Shown here: positions 19,409-24,917 of the stretch, in pieces
Position numbering within the stretch: the first letter of the stretch is position 1
Layout: every line of letters starts with the position of its first letter
NCBI GenBank assembly: GCA_012519115.1
Contig: JAAYQW010000023.1
Location: forward strand, 1 to 34,835
Direction of reading: 5' to 3'
Source of the DNA: Spirochaetales bacterium
GTDB taxonomy: Bacteria; Spirochaetota; Spirochaetia; Sphaerochaetales; Sphaerochaetaceae
DNA length: 34,835 nucleotides
Program-made: the position numbers and the translations under genes
The notes under the pieces: model-generated
Told to the model about the DNA's origin: nothing
The model's input: only the letters and a program-made list of their open reading frames with translations
Database searches by the model: none

Positions 19409-20706
19409 CATGTTCCGTCGTGATGGACGACCTTCATCCCGCACTCTTCAAACCGTTCAAAGAAATCGGGGAATGATACCGCGACGCATTCCGTTTCGGT
19501 GATGGTGATCTCCTCCCTTGCCGCCAGCGCCGCCGCCACCATCGCCATCGCGATTCGATGATCTCCTGCGGAAGACACCGTTCCACCTCTGATGGGAGTC
19601 GGGCCATGGACGTGGAGCTCATCCTCCCCTATCTCCAGCGAGCACCCCAATCGATTGAGGCGCTCGGTCATTTCAAAGACCCGATCGGTTTCCTTTACTC
19701 GTACATGGGAGATATTGGTGAACGTCGTCGTTCCATGCGCCTGCGTCGCCGCCACGACGAGAGAAGGAAGCGCATCGGGGATATCCGCCAGATCGATTTC
19801 CTGCAAGGCGATGAGCGGTTTGCCGCCCCTGATCGAAAGAGTTCCCTCAAGAGGATGCACAGCGATGTCGGCTCCCATAGCTTTGAGAATATCGACTACC
19901 CGTTTATCCCCCTGACTGTCGGAAAAGTCCAGACCGGTGATCGTGAGGTCGGAAGGGGTCAGTACGGAAGCGACCAATGGAAATGCTGCCGCCGACCAAT
20001 CACCGCTGACGGTCACTTCACGCCCCCGGTACGTCTTTGTATTGGGAACTTCAAAATATTCATAGTTGCTTGGATTCTCCACCTCGATGCCGAACCTCTT
20101 CATCCAATCGAGCGTCAGCTGAACGTATGGCTTTTCCAGCCCGTTGTGGACGGTGATGGTAACGGGAATCTCCGCAAACGGGCTCACCAGAAGCAGGCTG
20201 GAGACGAATTGACTGTTGAAGCCTTGCAGAGTGACGGTTCCGCCAAGAAGAGGACCTGTGATCGTGACCGGCGGAGAGACCTTGTTGGGATTATGCACCG
20301 AAACCTCGACGCCCAGATCCTCAAGGGCATCGAACAGCGTCTTGAAGGGCCGCCTTTGGATCTGCTCGTCGCCGGTAAGCGTGACCGGTCTTCGGGCCAA
20401 CGACGCGATCGATGAAAAAAAAGAGGTCGCCGTTCCGCTGTTTCCCAGATCGAGGCTCTTCTGAGGAGCTTCAAGATGACGCCCCACTCCTTCGACGATC
20501 CACCGGTCCCCTGCTTCAGTGATGGATGCCCCTAGAGCGATCGCCGCTTCTTTGGCGGAAAGTCCGTCTCCGGAGGCCAGCGGATTGTGAATGACCGAAC
20601 GCCCTTCGGAAAGCATCGAAAGGAGCACCGCCCTGATCGTGTCGCTTTTGGAGCCCGGAACGGCCATCGTTCCCCTCAATGCGCCCCTCTGAATCGTTAC
20701 GTTCAT
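19408..20706 (-). CDS. aroA: 3-phosphoshikimate 1-carboxyvinyltransferase (EPSP synthase)
   Basis: A 432-residue enzyme joining shikimate 3-phosphate and phosphoenolpyruvate in the shikimate pathway. Visible motifs are PGSKSDTIRA (17-26), LGNSGTATSF (87-96), GDEQIQRRPF with the conserved PEP-site arginine, NSQFVSSLLLVSPF, GDWSAAAFPL, the HVRVKETDRV substrate-binding stretch, and AGDHRIAMAM. Where most family members have NxGTxxR, residue 95 is serine. ATG overlaps the aroH stop as ATGA, with AGGAAAG as the ribosome-binding site. The gene ends against the tRNA-Thr terminator. Confidence 0.95.
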   Translation of the reverse strand: MNVTIQRGALRGTMAVPGSKSDTIRAVLLSMLSEGRSVIHNPLASGDGLSAKEAAIALGASITEAGDRWIVEGVGRHLEAPQKSLDLGNSGTATSFFSSIASLARRPVTLTGDEQIQRRPFKTLFDALEDLGVEVSVHNPNKVSPPVTITGPLLGGTVTLQGFNSQFVSSLLLVSPFAEIPVTITVHNGLEKPYVQLTLDWMKRFGIEVENPSNYEYFEVPNTKTYRGREVTVSGDWSAAAFPLVASVLTPSDLTITGLDFSDSQGDKRVVDILKAMGADIAVHPLEGTLSIRGGKPLIALQEIDLADIPDALPSLVVAATQAHGTTTFTNISHVRVKETDRVFEMTERLNRLGCSLEIGEDELHVHGPTPIRGGTVSSAGDHRIAMAMVAAALAAREEITITETECVAVSFPDFFERFEECGMKVVHHDGT

Positions 20707-21077
20707 TCTTTCCTCATCAGATCGGGGCGAAGGAGTTCCGCCCCGTCAAGATAGACCGGCTTAAGATCGCTTTTATGAATCTTCAAGATGAAAAGCATTC
20801 GAATCACTCGACTCATCATCCCCTCGATTTCAAGCTCCGGCATGCAGAACAACGGCACGTTGGAAGCAAGGTTTCCCCTCCTCAGACCCGTTGCCGGATT
20901 GAGAGATTTCAAATCTCCGGTCTGAGTGATCAGCAACGAAGCGATTTGCTCTTCCTGCAGGTTGTTTGCTTCCAATATGCCAACAAAGAGCTTTTGAGCC
21001 GCTTGAGCGATCGCTTCCTTGGAATCGACGGCGACGTGAATAGCGCCGCGCACTGCTGAGATCTGAGGAGTATCCAC
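20703..21077 (-). CDS. aroH: Chorismate mutase, AroH type
   Basis: A 124-residue trimeric AroH-fold mutase converting chorismate to prephenate for Phe/Tyr synthesis. Family landmarks are SAVRGAIHVAVDSKEAI at the start, LLITQTGDL, the LFCMPELEIEG stretch with RVIRMLFIL, and the C-terminal PVYLDGAELLRPDL. I place the start at GTG 21077, with GGGGTGGG 5 nt upstream and 1 nt after the previous stop; GTG 21086 is also possible. The frame upstream of it is only the shadow of the membrane-protein gene. It overlaps aroA by 4 nt, so two shikimate-branch steps are co-expressed. Confidence 0.9.
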   Translation of the reverse strand: MDTPQISAVRGAIHVAVDSKEAIAQAAQKLFVGILEANNLQEEQIASLLITQTGDLKSLNPATGLRRGNLASNVPLFCMPELEIEGMMSRVIRMLFILKIHKSDLKPVYLDGAELLRPDLMRKE

Positions 21078-21078
21078 G

Positions 21079-21429
21079 TTACCCACCCCACTGTATTGAA
21101 AGTCCTTGATGGACCAGCGTATTGATGATTTCGATGAGCGTCGCCATGAGAATGACCGCTCCGATTCGAAGAATCGTGAAACATATCGGAGAAAATGGAA
21201 ATACCTTGTCAACAAACCAGACAACAATGGAGAATGCCAAAACCCACACTCCGAAGATGACGCTCGAGTATCCGACAAGCTTCAGCAAAAAGCTCAACAA
21301 CGTTTCAAAGGACGTGTCAACAAGGAAAAAACCGCCCAGAATATAGAGGAGGAAAAAAAACAGGTACAAAAAGAGAGTATATGTGTGGACCCGGCTTGAA
21401 AACGCCAAGAGCCTTCGCTCATGCAACAT
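21079..21429 (-). CDS. Small multi-pass membrane protein, unknown
   Basis: A 116-residue hydrophobic protein with about three transmembrane segments (TYTLFLYLFFFLLYILGGFF, then SSVIFGVWVLAFSIVVWFV, and TILRIGAVILMATLIEIINT). A short basic N-terminus suggests the N-in orientation. I recognise no family. The ATG at 21429 lies 16 nt after the thiN stop; the open frame continues upstream only inside thiN. It is in the thiN-aroH-aroA series, whose neighbours do not explain its job. Confidence 0.6.
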   Translation of the reverse strand: MLHERRLLAFSSRVHTYTLFLYLFFFLLYILGGFFLVDTSFETLLSFLLKLVGYSSVIFGVWVLAFSIVVWFVDKVFPFSPICFTILRIGAVILMATLIEIINTLVHQGLSIQWGG

Positions 21430-21445
21430 GCTTCGATCGTAGCAC

Positions 21446-22072
21446 CTAAGCGCCGGTATCTGCAACCGGAAAACAGAGGAAGATCGGATCGCCTTCAACC
21501 GAGACATCCAGCACGTCGGCGGCCGTCCGGTTGGAAAGCGAGATCGATTCCGTCGTCAATCGATACTCCTTCAGCGGCCAGACCAGATCGGAAGCGTTGA
21601 CGACACTCTCGCCGGTAAAGGAAGCGGGCAGAAAACTGAGCGTCCGTCCCGCCGAAGTGATGAATCTTCGTTTGCGGTGAACGCTGTAAAGCGATTCATA
21701 CGTGGTGTGCCAGGCAAGCGGAAGACCGTAGCGATCAAAGAGCGAATACGTCTGAAGAAGATGATCCATCCGATATCCGCCCCCACCGATGAGGGTATAC
21801 GCAGCCATCCCCCGCTCCCGACCGATCATCAGAGCCAGCTCCGTATCGCTTTCGAGCTTCATATCATGGTCTTTGTGAATGATCTCGCCGACTCGCTCCG
21901 GTCGTATTTGCGCCGAATCGAAATCACCGACCCATATATCGGCGAACAAGTCGTGTTTTACCGCGAACTCGATACCGCTGTCGGCGACCACGATGAATCG
22001 GTAGGATTCGAGGTGAAGATCTTCAAGCGCTTTCGGAGCTCCCCCACCGGTGATTATCAACGCATGGCCCAT
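21446..22072 (-). CDS. thiN: Thiamine pyrophosphokinase
   Basis: A 208-residue enzyme transferring pyrophosphate from ATP to thiamine. Motifs visible are the N-terminal ALIITGGGAPKAL, ADSGIEFAVKHDLFADIWVGDFDS (30-53, with the metal-binding GDFDS), KLESDTELAL (72-81) and GGGGYRMDHLL (96-106). The C-terminal beta-sandwich carries LSLSNRTAADVLDVSVEGD, close to the usual SNxF/V motif. The ATG at 22072 follows AGGAGGGAAAGGGGG; an upstream ATG at 22105 would add 11 residues through this ribosome-binding site. It is the first gene of the thiN-membrane protein-aroH-aroA series. Confidence 0.9.
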   Translation of the reverse strand: MGHALIITGGGAPKALEDLHLESYRFIVVADSGIEFAVKHDLFADIWVGDFDSAQIRPERVGEIIHKDHDMKLESDTELALMIGRERGMAAYTLIGGGGYRMDHLLQTYSLFDRYGLPLAWHTTYESLYSVHRKRRFITSAGRTLSFLPASFTGESVVNASDLVWPLKEYRLTTESISLSNRTAADVLDVSVEGDPIFLCFPVADTGA

Positions 22073-22139: not shown

Positions 22140-23459
22140 ATGCCCACGACGTTCGAGCGATTAGCTGCATACGGCGTTCAACCGCCGACAATCTTAGTAC
22201 CGAAGAAAGAAATCGATTTGCAAAAATGGGCGGTCGTCGCCTGCGACCAGTATACTTCGGAACCGGAGTATTGGAAACGGGTCGAAGCATATGTAGGTGA
22301 TGCGCCCTCTGCGCTGAAGCTGATCTACCCCGAAGTATATCTTGAAGAGAAGAATCCCCGAAAGCGGATCGCCGCGATCAACCGGTCGATGAACCGGTAT
22401 CTCGAAGATGATCTTTTTGACGTCTACGAAAAAAGCTTCTTTCTCATTCATAGGGAGGACGAAGGAGGCGGCAACGGTCGATGGGGCCTTCTCGCAGCGT
22501 TGGATCTGGAACACTACGATTGGAACAACGGCTCGCGCACCCTCATCAGGGCAAGTGAAGAAACGATTCTCGATCGGATTCCTCCCCGCAAGACGATTCG
22601 CCATGATGCCGCATTGGAGATACCCCATATCCTCGTCATGATCGACGATCCGGATGATACAATCATTGAACCGCTGAGCAGAAACATATCCGCCTTCCGC
22701 CAAGTCTACTCCACGTCTTTGATGGAAAGGGGCGGAACGGTTACGGCGTGGCAGATCGACGAAGAAACGGAGTTTCATCGCCTTGCAGATCGGTTCGAGG
22801 CTCTGCTCGAGAAGCAAGAGGCGGAAGATCCGTTCCTCTTTGCGATGGGCGACGGCAATCATAGCCTGGCGACGGCGAAGAGCTGCTGGCTTGACATCAA
22901 AAAAGAATTATCAGAAGAAGAGATGGCCGATCATCCGGCTCGTTGGGCGCTGGTTGAAATCCAAAACATCTATGACCCGGGCATCATCTTCGAACCGATT
23001 CACCGGTTGCTCTTTTCGATCGAGCATCAATCATTCCTTGATGCCCTTGGCACCTTCTGCGCCTCTTATGAAACAAAGCCTCTCTCCTCCGTCGAGGAAT
23101 TGAACCATCATCTCGCCTTGGACGATGGTGTTCAGCGTTTCGGATATAAAGACGAGAAGCGATTCCTCCTCTTTTCGCTGGTCGATCCCGCCTCTTCGTT
23201 GGTTGCCGAAACGATCCAGAACGTGATTGATCGATTATTGGAGAAGCGATTGGCGACGGTCGACTACACCCACGGAGAAGAGGTCACGCTTCGGCTGGGA
23301 TCGCTTCCGACGAATGCCGCGATCATTCTCCCCATTTTCCCCAAGTCGGCATTTTTCAAAACCGTCAAGGAGGAAGGCAGACTGCCAAGGAAAACGTTCT
23401 CGATCGGGCATGCTCACCAGAAGCGCTTCTACCTTGAAGCTCGAAAAATCATCGATTGA
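22140..23459 (+). CDS. DUF1015-family protein
   Basis: A 439-residue protein of DUF1015, a widespread but poorly characterised family. The N-terminus has the characteristic AVVACDQYTSEPEYW, and GDGNHSLATAK lies at residues 237-247. In Thermotoga and spirochaetes members sit near metabolic genes; some have been discussed in serine or phosphonate metabolism, but no activity can be assigned here. The ATG at 22140 has an AAAGAGGA ribosome-binding site. The promoter region is shared with the divergent thiN gene (22073-22139). The 3' end overlaps the convergent FtsB-like gene by 11 nt. Confidence 0.88.
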   Translation: MPTTFERLAAYGVQPPTILVPKKEIDLQKWAVVACDQYTSEPEYWKRVEAYVGDAPSALKLIYPEVYLEEKNPRKRIAAINRSMNRYLEDDLFDVYEKSFFLIHREDEGGGNGRWGLLAALDLEHYDWNNGSRTLIRASEETILDRIPPRKTIRHDAALEIPHILVMIDDPDDTIIEPLSRNISAFRQVYSTSLMERGGTVTAWQIDEETEFHRLADRFEALLEKQEAEDPFLFAMGDGNHSLATAKSCWLDIKKELSEEEMADHPARWALVEIQNIYDPGIIFEPIHRLLFSIEHQSFLDALGTFCASYETKPLSSVEELNHHLALDDGVQRFGYKDEKRFLLFSLVDPASSLVAETIQNVIDRLLEKRLATVDYTHGEEVTLRLGSLPTNAAIILPIFPKSAFFKTVKEEGRLPRKTFSIGHAHQKRFYLEARKIID

Positions 23460-23883
23460 CACGTCTTCTATCTATGATATAGGCAAGCATGGTTGCGAGA
23501 AAAGCGGGGAGCAAGGCCCAGAGCGCGAGCGTGGTACGACCCACACCTTCAAAGAATTCACACCTCCCTTCGATTGGCCGATCTTTGAGGATATCGGGGT
23601 ATTCGCGCTCTTCCAAAGGGAAGTAGTACACGACCTCTCCTTCACTTTGGTAGCCATACTTGAACGCAGCGTCTCGAAGAGCATCTTCCTTGTCCATCTG
23701 AGATTCTTGGCGCTCAAGAGCCTGGATTTGAATCCGAAGAAGGTTTTGATTATAGGAAAGGCGTTGGATTTCCGCTTTCAGTGCTCGGTTGTGCAGGTAG
23801 CCTCCTTGGCCAAAAATGGCCAGGAGAAGGAGAAATGTGAAGAAATAGGTCAATAAACCTGCTAGCAAGCTTCTCTTATGCAT
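23449..23883 (-). CDS. FtsB/DivIC-like septum-formation protein with extra membrane segment
   Basis: A 144-residue protein. A transmembrane segment (6-25) is followed by a coiled coil (30-65, LKAEIQRLSYNQNLLRIQIQ) and the family stretch DALRDAAFKYGYQSEGEVVYYF (68-88), the profile of FtsB/DivIC division proteins. Those proteins normally end soon after; here a second hydrophobic segment follows (117-137), then RRRVNR. The start at 23883 has only AAAG as a possible ribosome-binding site. It is divergent from the degenerate-GGDEF membrane protein. A division role is likely by family but the second segment is unusual. Confidence 0.7.
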   Translation of the reverse strand: MHKRSLLAGLLTYFFTFLLLLAIFGQGGYLHNRALKAEIQRLSYNQNLLRIQIQALERQESQMDKEDALRDAAFKYGYQSEGEVVYYFPLEEREYPDILKDRPIEGRCEFFEGVGRTTLALWALLPAFLATMLAYIIDRRRVNR

Positions 23884-23960
23884 ATAAATCTTTAATATTT
23901 ATAGTAAAGTATGATACTATGAGTATTATATAGGAATCTGACCTGGCTGTGGAGGTAAGA
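23884..23960. promoter_or_regulatory. Divergent promoter region, FtsB-like / GGDEF-like
   Basis: An AT-rich 77-nt region. AGTAT-G-ATACT at 23908-23918 is a perfect palindrome. TATTAT at 23924-23929 could be the -10 of the plus-strand gene, with a start near 23936. No convincing -35 elements are visible. TATGATACTAT (23910-23920) is identical to 1587-1597 upstream of recA. Confidence 0.35.
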
Positions 23961-24917
23961 ATGTCTGAAAAGAAACGGTATGGGCGCCAAATATTTATAA
24001 GCTTCATTGTTACGATTGTCATCCTCCTCGGGGGAGTGTATCTGGCGACCCAGTATCTGCTGCCTCAGGTGGAGTGGGATCAAGCTCAACTGTTTTCTTT
24101 CTTCGTGAAGGTGTTTCCCCTCCTGATCGGCTTGATAATGATTGAAATCGGTGTTGTCATATCTAAGAAGAGAGATGAAGATTTTGCCGATGATGTCGAC
24201 AAGCTTCCGCCCAACGCCTACGACCGACCTTTCTATGCCCTTCCCCAGGATGATCCCGCATTTATCCGAAACGAAGAAATCATTTACGCCCAGGCTCCCG
24301 TTCTTGATGAAGCGACGTTCACCGAAGCGGTCCTCAGCGAAGAACCGATCGTAGAACGCGCCGCCGAAGTGATTCTTCCGTTAGACCTTCCACAGGTTGA
24401 AGAAGAACCGGAGGTCGTGGTCAGTGAGCCCGTAGTTGAGAGCGTTGCCGTACAAGTCGAGGAGGAGATTGCAGAAGAAGCTCTTCCTGTCGCCGCTCCT
24501 TCCCCGATGGTTGTCGAAGAGGTCTCCGCCGCCGAAGAAGAGGACGTGCTCCAATACTATGAGATGGACTTCGATTCGATCCTCGGGCTCGAGCTTGAGA
24601 GTGCGAACGATCTCAACTATGACCTTACCGTCGTGATCGCCCGAGTCACGGAAGGCCCGGTAGAGGCGATCGCTCAGAAGCTGATTCGCCAAAGCGGAGA
24701 CCTTTCCTACATATTCACCCTGGAGGATGATGTCATCGGTATCATCCTCCCCTTCTATAACGGGGAAGAAGCCCGCACCTTCACCCTTTCCCTGATTGAA
24801 TCCTGTCAGCGGGAGTTCCAAGGGAGCGAGCTGGAAATCGGATTCGCATCTCGCAACGGTCGAGCCGTCGAGAAGGAGGAAATCATCAAGGAGGCGTACA
24901 AAGCCGCTTCTTTCTAA
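23961..24917 (+). CDS. Two-pass membrane protein with degenerate GGDEF-like domain
   Basis: A 318-residue protein. Two transmembrane segments (10-33 and 45-68) are followed by an acidic Glu/Pro/Val-rich linker (about 115-205). A C-terminal domain (215-318) has the rhythm of a GGDEF nucleotidyl cyclase: LTVVIARV, IFTLEDDVIGIILPFYNGEEA where RxGGDEFxxxLP would lie, ELEIGFASR and EEIIKEAYKAA. The signature itself is absent, so diguanylate cyclase activity is not expected; such domains usually bind partners or nucleotides. The ATG at 23961 follows a perfect GGAGGT; a GTG at 23949 is less likely. The fold call is my reading, not a search result. Confidence 0.6.
   Translation: MSEKKRYGRQIFISFIVTIVILLGGVYLATQYLLPQVEWDQAQLFSFFVKVFPLLIGLIMIEIGVVISKKRDEDFADDVDKLPPNAYDRPFYALPQDDPAFIRNEEIIYAQAPVLDEATFTEAVLSEEPIVERAAEVILPLDLPQVEEEPEVVVSEPVVESVAVQVEEEIAEEALPVAAPSPMVVEEVSAAEEEDVLQYYEMDFDSILGLELESANDLNYDLTVVIARVTEGPVEAIAQKLIRQSGDLSYIFTLEDDVIGIILPFYNGEEARTFTLSLIESCQREFQGSELEIGFASRNGRAVEKEEIIKEAYKAASF

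Follow-up and report, generated by a model that had tools for sequence, protein, structure and literature searches.

The locus and its two proteins

The DNA analyzed here (hereafter the window) is a 34,835-nucleotide stretch of contig JAAYQW010000023.1, from the 1.70-Mb draft genome (83% complete) of a Spirochaetales bacterium of the family Sphaerochaetaceae. Two genes stand back to back within it: one on the minus strand (23449..23883), encoding a 144-aa protein of the FtsB/DivIC family, and one on the plus strand (23961..24917), encoding a two-pass membrane protein of 318 aa whose degenerate domain is derived from GGDEF. For the latter, the ATG at 23961 is preferred over the listed GTG at 23949, given its GGAGGT Shine-Dalgarno sequence and the retention of this start in relatives.

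The initial annotation had described the membrane protein gene as divergent from an FtsB-like gene, a description confirmed by the opposite strands and by a match of the minus-strand ORF to PF04977 (DivIC; residues 14-89; E=1.3e-8; score 34.9 bits, cut-off 28.9). The FtsB-like product shares with this family an N-terminal transmembrane (TM) segment (residues 6-24), a coiled-coil region and the C-terminal motif, but differs in an added C-terminal TM segment predicted from hydropathy (residues 119-137; 23473..23529, minus strand), which is followed by the basic tail RRRVNR. FtsB of E. coli has a single N-terminal TM segment, a periplasmic C-terminus and no second C-terminal TM segment, a layout from which the window protein departs. 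Because of the extra predicted segment, the C-terminus of the window protein is probably cytoplasmic. By hydropathy, the same second segment occurs in nearly all of the FtsB-like homologues that were examined, whether from Sphaerochaetaceae, Treponema-type or Borrelia-type genomes (the latter two being labels assigned here from gene content and position), so the two-TM FtsB to which this locus draws attention looks like a form typical of spirochaetes. In the window, the DUF1015 and FtsB genes overlap by their 3' ends (23449-23459), and the Sua5/TsaC gene that lies between them in relatives (4923-5540 in L032) is missing at this place.

The GGDEF-like protein begins with a TM helical hairpin (residues 3-80; 23967..24200, plus strand), comprising AlphaFold helices 3-36 and 41-80 and hydropathy segments 11-29 and 49-67, with a mere few residues predicted to be extracytoplasmic. 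Immediately behind it lies the best-conserved part of the protein, a juxtamembrane motif, D-K-L-P-P-N-A-Y...DDP (residues 80-99; 24198..24257, plus strand), in which D80, L82-Y87 and D97-P99 are invariant across 26 sequences. The following stretch (approximately residues 101-203; 24261..24569, plus strand) is a variable, disordered acidic linker, with pLDDT mostly below 50 and 27 D/E against 2 K/R in residues 101-200. The two-pass topology and the long acidic linker had both been noted at the outset, and both stand. The GGDEF-derived domain itself occupies residues 204-317 (24570..24911, plus strand) and shows an alpha-beta-alpha-beta-beta-alpha-beta-alpha topology. Within it, LEDDVIG (residues 254-260; 24720..24740, plus strand) marks the site of the lost GG(D/E)EF signature, and SRNGR (residues 297-301; 24849..24863, plus strand) belongs to a conserved, family-specific GxxSRxxR motif, whose G and second R are invariant over the Sphaerochaetaceae and Treponema-type homologues. 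In domain-alignment numbering, E12, G95, R102 and E112 are present in every member, this motif included. Neither Pfam nor NCBIfam holds a family model that covers the protein; the family therefore goes unseen by standard annotation, yet it occurs in most of the Sphaerochaetaceae and has class-wide ancestry.

The two genes are separated by an intergenic region of exactly 77 nt (23884..23960); in most members of the genus, the gap measures 74-76 nt. It carries back-to-back promoter-like boxes, read by eye in an alignment of relatives, in which they are conserved (TATAAT-type on the plus strand; TTTACA...TATCAT-type on the minus strand), alongside a promoter scan. The palindrome reported earlier in this gap does exist as an imperfect inverted repeat (23893-23928; 14-nt arms, 86%), but it is weak and close to chance, since 15 of 500 dinucleotide shuffles (3%) equal it and the aligned intergenic regions of relatives do not keep it in place. 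On the same two grounds, we rejected it as an operator.

Ancestry and degeneration of the C-terminal domain

Direct searches of Pfam, NCBIfam and PDB sequences with the domain returned nothing significant, and neither the window protein nor 18 aligned members matched PF00990 at E<=1. Its homology was established instead through structure and intermediate sequences. An AlphaFold model of the domain, built from 25 sequences, reached a pLDDT of 91.4 and a pTM of 0.85; searched against the PDB with Foldseek, it gave 22 matches at E<=0.001, every one of them a GGDEF domain (TMq 0.64-0.81, the best being YfiN at 0.81), and GGDEF domains made up nearly the whole of the hit list. The full-length model agrees with this result. 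In hhalign comparisons, the family profile aligned with the six real GGDEF domains of the same genome at a probability of 92.5% (E=5e-7), rising to 97.3% (E=2.3e-11) once Treponema-type members were added, against 0.15% for an unrelated FtsB profile used as a control. Finally, among its matches in Treponemataceae-like genomes, the family profile recovers the Treponema-type homologue L066 (E=1e-10), which itself matches PF00990 at 33.7 bits (cut-off 23.8) over the same residues. Since structure, profile comparison and intermediate all agree, the domain is homologous to GGDEF domains in both fold and ancestry, as the proposal of a GGDEF-like domain lacking the signature had anticipated. A viral or mobile origin was also considered and set aside, as no relative was found among viral contigs.

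The same alignments show what has been lost. LGGDEFMVVL of the real GGDEF domains pairs with LEDDVIG in the window, so that TLEDDVI stands where RLGGDEF would be; relatives have LEGGKIA at this position, and the window protein has no GG(D/E)EF active-site signature. The metal/GTP loop DxxFKxxND..GH is deleted (approximately 14 residues), the metal-binding Asp is replaced by Ala in the window and is variable among relatives, and no RxxD I-site is found ahead of the signature position. Judged by these residues, the protein is catalytically dead. The degenerate GGDEF domain of GdpP has a weak, non-cyclase nucleotide activity, and by analogy the present domain may have one as well. In comparison with PF00990 diguanylate cyclases, then, the family shares the fold, the order of secondary-structure elements, a detectable remote homology and a C-terminal, predicted cytoplasmic placement behind a membrane anchor; unlike them, it has neither signature, metal/GTP loop, metal Asp nor I-site, is shorter by about 30-40 residues, and has the G..SR..R motif of its own.

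Conservation and genomic context across spirochaetes

Members of the Sphaerochaetaceae are coccoid and non-motile (PMC11750108), and a flagellin gene was found in none of the 139 genomes of the family surveyed. The GGDEF-like gene is present in 116 of these, spanning 17 genera and including Sphaerochaeta halotolerans, other Sphaerochaeta, and Sphaerochaetaceae and Spirochaetales MAGs. When genes are scored by profile thresholds, in genomes some of which are incomplete, and with kinship ignored, both genes occur in 88 of the 139, the GGDEF-like gene without a detected FtsB in 28, and FtsB without the GGDEF-like gene in 11, the last mostly genomes of 1.1-1.6 Mb. The divergent pair is thus widespread over the family but not obligate, and a strict partnership with FtsB is ruled out by the independent losses. 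Neither of the two outcomes named at the outset as refuting the idea, a fold unrelated to GGDEF or a pair not kept in relatives, was observed.

Over most of the Sphaerochaetaceae, the pair sits in a block that is kept with local changes: TPK - small membrane protein - DUF1015(+) - Sua5/TsaC(-) - FtsB(-) | GGDEF-like(+) - RNase Z(-) - LolCE-like permease(-). In the window, the small membrane protein that follows thiamine pyrophosphokinase, at a position kept across the family, lies at 21079-21507. An AroH-type chorismate mutase (20703-21278; NCBIfam TIGR01796 above its cut-off over residues 74-187) adjoins an AroA-like ORF, and its first ~70 residues may reflect an over-long start.

Treponema-type and related genomes show a larger version of this arrangement. 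In these, FtsB and the GGDEF-like homologue lie on the same contig, in the same orientation as in the window, about 7-8 kb apart, in the order Sua5(-) - FtsB(-) | acidic 'YGVWVK' protein(+) - second unknown protein(+) - two Maf/MptE-like genes(+) - GGDEF-like(+), which recurs with small variations in seven genomes. The two Maf/MptE-like genes are of glycosyltransferase type; Maf-type genes of any kind occur in only 7 of the 139 Sphaerochaetaceae genomes and are absent from the other 132. Between their two TM segments, the Treponema-type homologues of the GGDEF-like protein carry ~105-135 residues that are likely to form a sensor domain. FtsB and this sensor-bearing homologue follow the same order in Treponema-type genomes, and the Sphaerochaeta pair therefore looks like a reduced form of the block. 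On the simplest account, the genes in between and the sensor domain have been removed; the direction of loss is inferred from the outgroups.

The long acidic protein divergent from FtsB in Treponema-type genomes (among others, 1675-4389 in L144, 1763-3565 in L145, 7346-9967 in L146, 1926-4157 in L147 and 8301-10427 in L148) has the motif L(D/E)xYGVWVK at its N-terminus, is conserved at its C-terminus (SVL.YMD.LLE.LPE.KI.EFA.S..F..YKKLF.ELGL), and belongs to no family in Pfam or NCBIfam. At the same position, Borrelia-type genomes carry a different acidic protein, with no profile match to it. The second unknown protein, which precedes the Maf-type genes and mostly starts with MGLL (4395-4886 in L144; 4164-5108 in L147), likewise has no family at its cut-off.

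Candidate roles of the GGDEF-like protein

Taken as a whole, the explanation that we favor, and hold to be somewhat probable, is that of a dead, membrane-tethered docking or scaffold protein, independent of c-di-GMP and descended by loss from a sensor-bearing Treponema-type homologue. The TM hairpin would anchor the protein in the inner membrane, and the conserved juxtamembrane motif, putatively cytoplasmic, would together with the acidic linker present the GGDEF-fold domain. With its catalytic and c-di-GMP-binding residues gone and a family-specific surface kept (E..., G..SR..R...EA), this domain would most likely serve as a protein-docking or scaffold part at the envelope, without the need for c-di-GMP. 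Its ancestor would have been a degenerate, sensor-bearing GGDEF protein closing the cluster divergent from FtsB in Treponema-type spirochaetes. In the non-flagellated Sphaerochaetaceae, the middle genes and the extracytoplasmic sensor would then have been lost, bringing the gene directly against ftsB with back-to-back promoter-like boxes; the locus offers a handle on how these flagella-less bacteria rebuilt an envelope/division locus. A more specific version, in which a sensor from the envelope/flagellar-glycosylation cluster of motile relatives was repurposed as a c-di-GMP-independent adaptor linking the membrane, perhaps the FtsB divisome, to a cytoplasmic partner, appears improbable. A role near the divisome, or contact with it, is only suggested by the locus.

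A nearly even chance must be given to the two genes being adjacent by inherited order alone, with no functional coupling beyond a shared promoter region. Each gene has been lost without the other (28 genomes against 11), and the synteny of DUF1015, Sua5/TsaC and RNase Z is about as strong as that of the pair itself. In L173-L176 and L201 (genus g37), the GGDEF-like gene adjoins Sua5/TsaC with no FtsB slot, and this subgroup seems to have no detectable FtsB-like gene at all; in L154, FtsB adjoins RNase Z. Together with the 7-8 kb and the Maf cluster that separate the genes in Treponema-type genomes, these observations also leave the initial proposal of a membrane module linked to cell division unsupported in that form. 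Inherited order alone is, however, less easily squared with a divergent layout and a 74-76-nt promoter gap kept across the genus, with the survival of FtsB adjacency in loci where RNase Z is not the immediate neighbor (L049-L054, L056 and L057), or with the co-occurrence of the two genes across the 139 genomes (Fisher p=0.011, with kinship ignored).

By analogy with YfiN, the protein could instead be a regulator of division or envelope stress that docks at the septum, an idea that we regard as unlikely. YfiN (DgcN) of E. coli and Salmonella is a membrane GGDEF protein that localizes at midcell by way of FtsZ and ZipA and blocks division (PMC4992967), and degenerate GGDEF domains of E. coli engage in strong protein-protein contacts (PMC5635695). 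The window protein resembles YfiN as a membrane-anchored GGDEF-fold protein and is genomically linked to a division gene, diverging from an FtsB/DivIC gene with which it shares a promoter region. YfiN, in contrast, has cyclase activity and an extracytoplasmic sensor, whereas the window protein has neither catalytic residues nor a periplasmic sensor domain. Moreover, the GGDEF-like gene is kept in the 28 genomes without a detected FtsB-like protein, and missing from small genomes that retain FtsB. We therefore treat YfiN and the degenerate E. coli domains as precedents by analogy, not as a sign of membership.

The view of the domain as a c-di-GMP effector with a degenerate active site, a receptor of the kind represented by CdgI, is much less probable still. 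The window genome encodes six GGDEF proteins above the Pfam cut-off, so c-di-GMP is probably made, and CdgI, a degenerate GGDEF protein with an intact I-site, does bind it (PMC5635695). Like CdgI and the GGDEF half of CsrD, for which protein contacts have been shown in E. coli (PMC5635695), the family is inactive; unlike CdgI, which belongs to a c-di-GMP network, it has no RxxD I-site ahead of the signature position and is retained in genomes with no detected diguanylate cyclase. At E<=1e-5, none was found in 39 of the 116 carriers; these 39 belong mostly to one genus (g37) and include many incomplete MAGs as well as several genomes at least 95% complete. Dependence of the protein on c-di-GMP made by such enzymes is unlikely there, and, with the I-site absent as well, the nucleotide sensing proposed at first is disfavored. 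Retention of the GGDEF fold in these genomes makes the role of dead GGDEF domains on their own directly testable.

Least credible of all, in our view, is the last alternative, that the gene is a vestige of a flagellar cluster in the course of being lost: the homologue does close a Maf-type glycosyltransferase cluster in Treponema-type genomes, and the Sphaerochaetaceae lack flagellin, but the frame is open and its motifs strongly conserved in 116 of 139 non-flagellated genomes from 17 genera.
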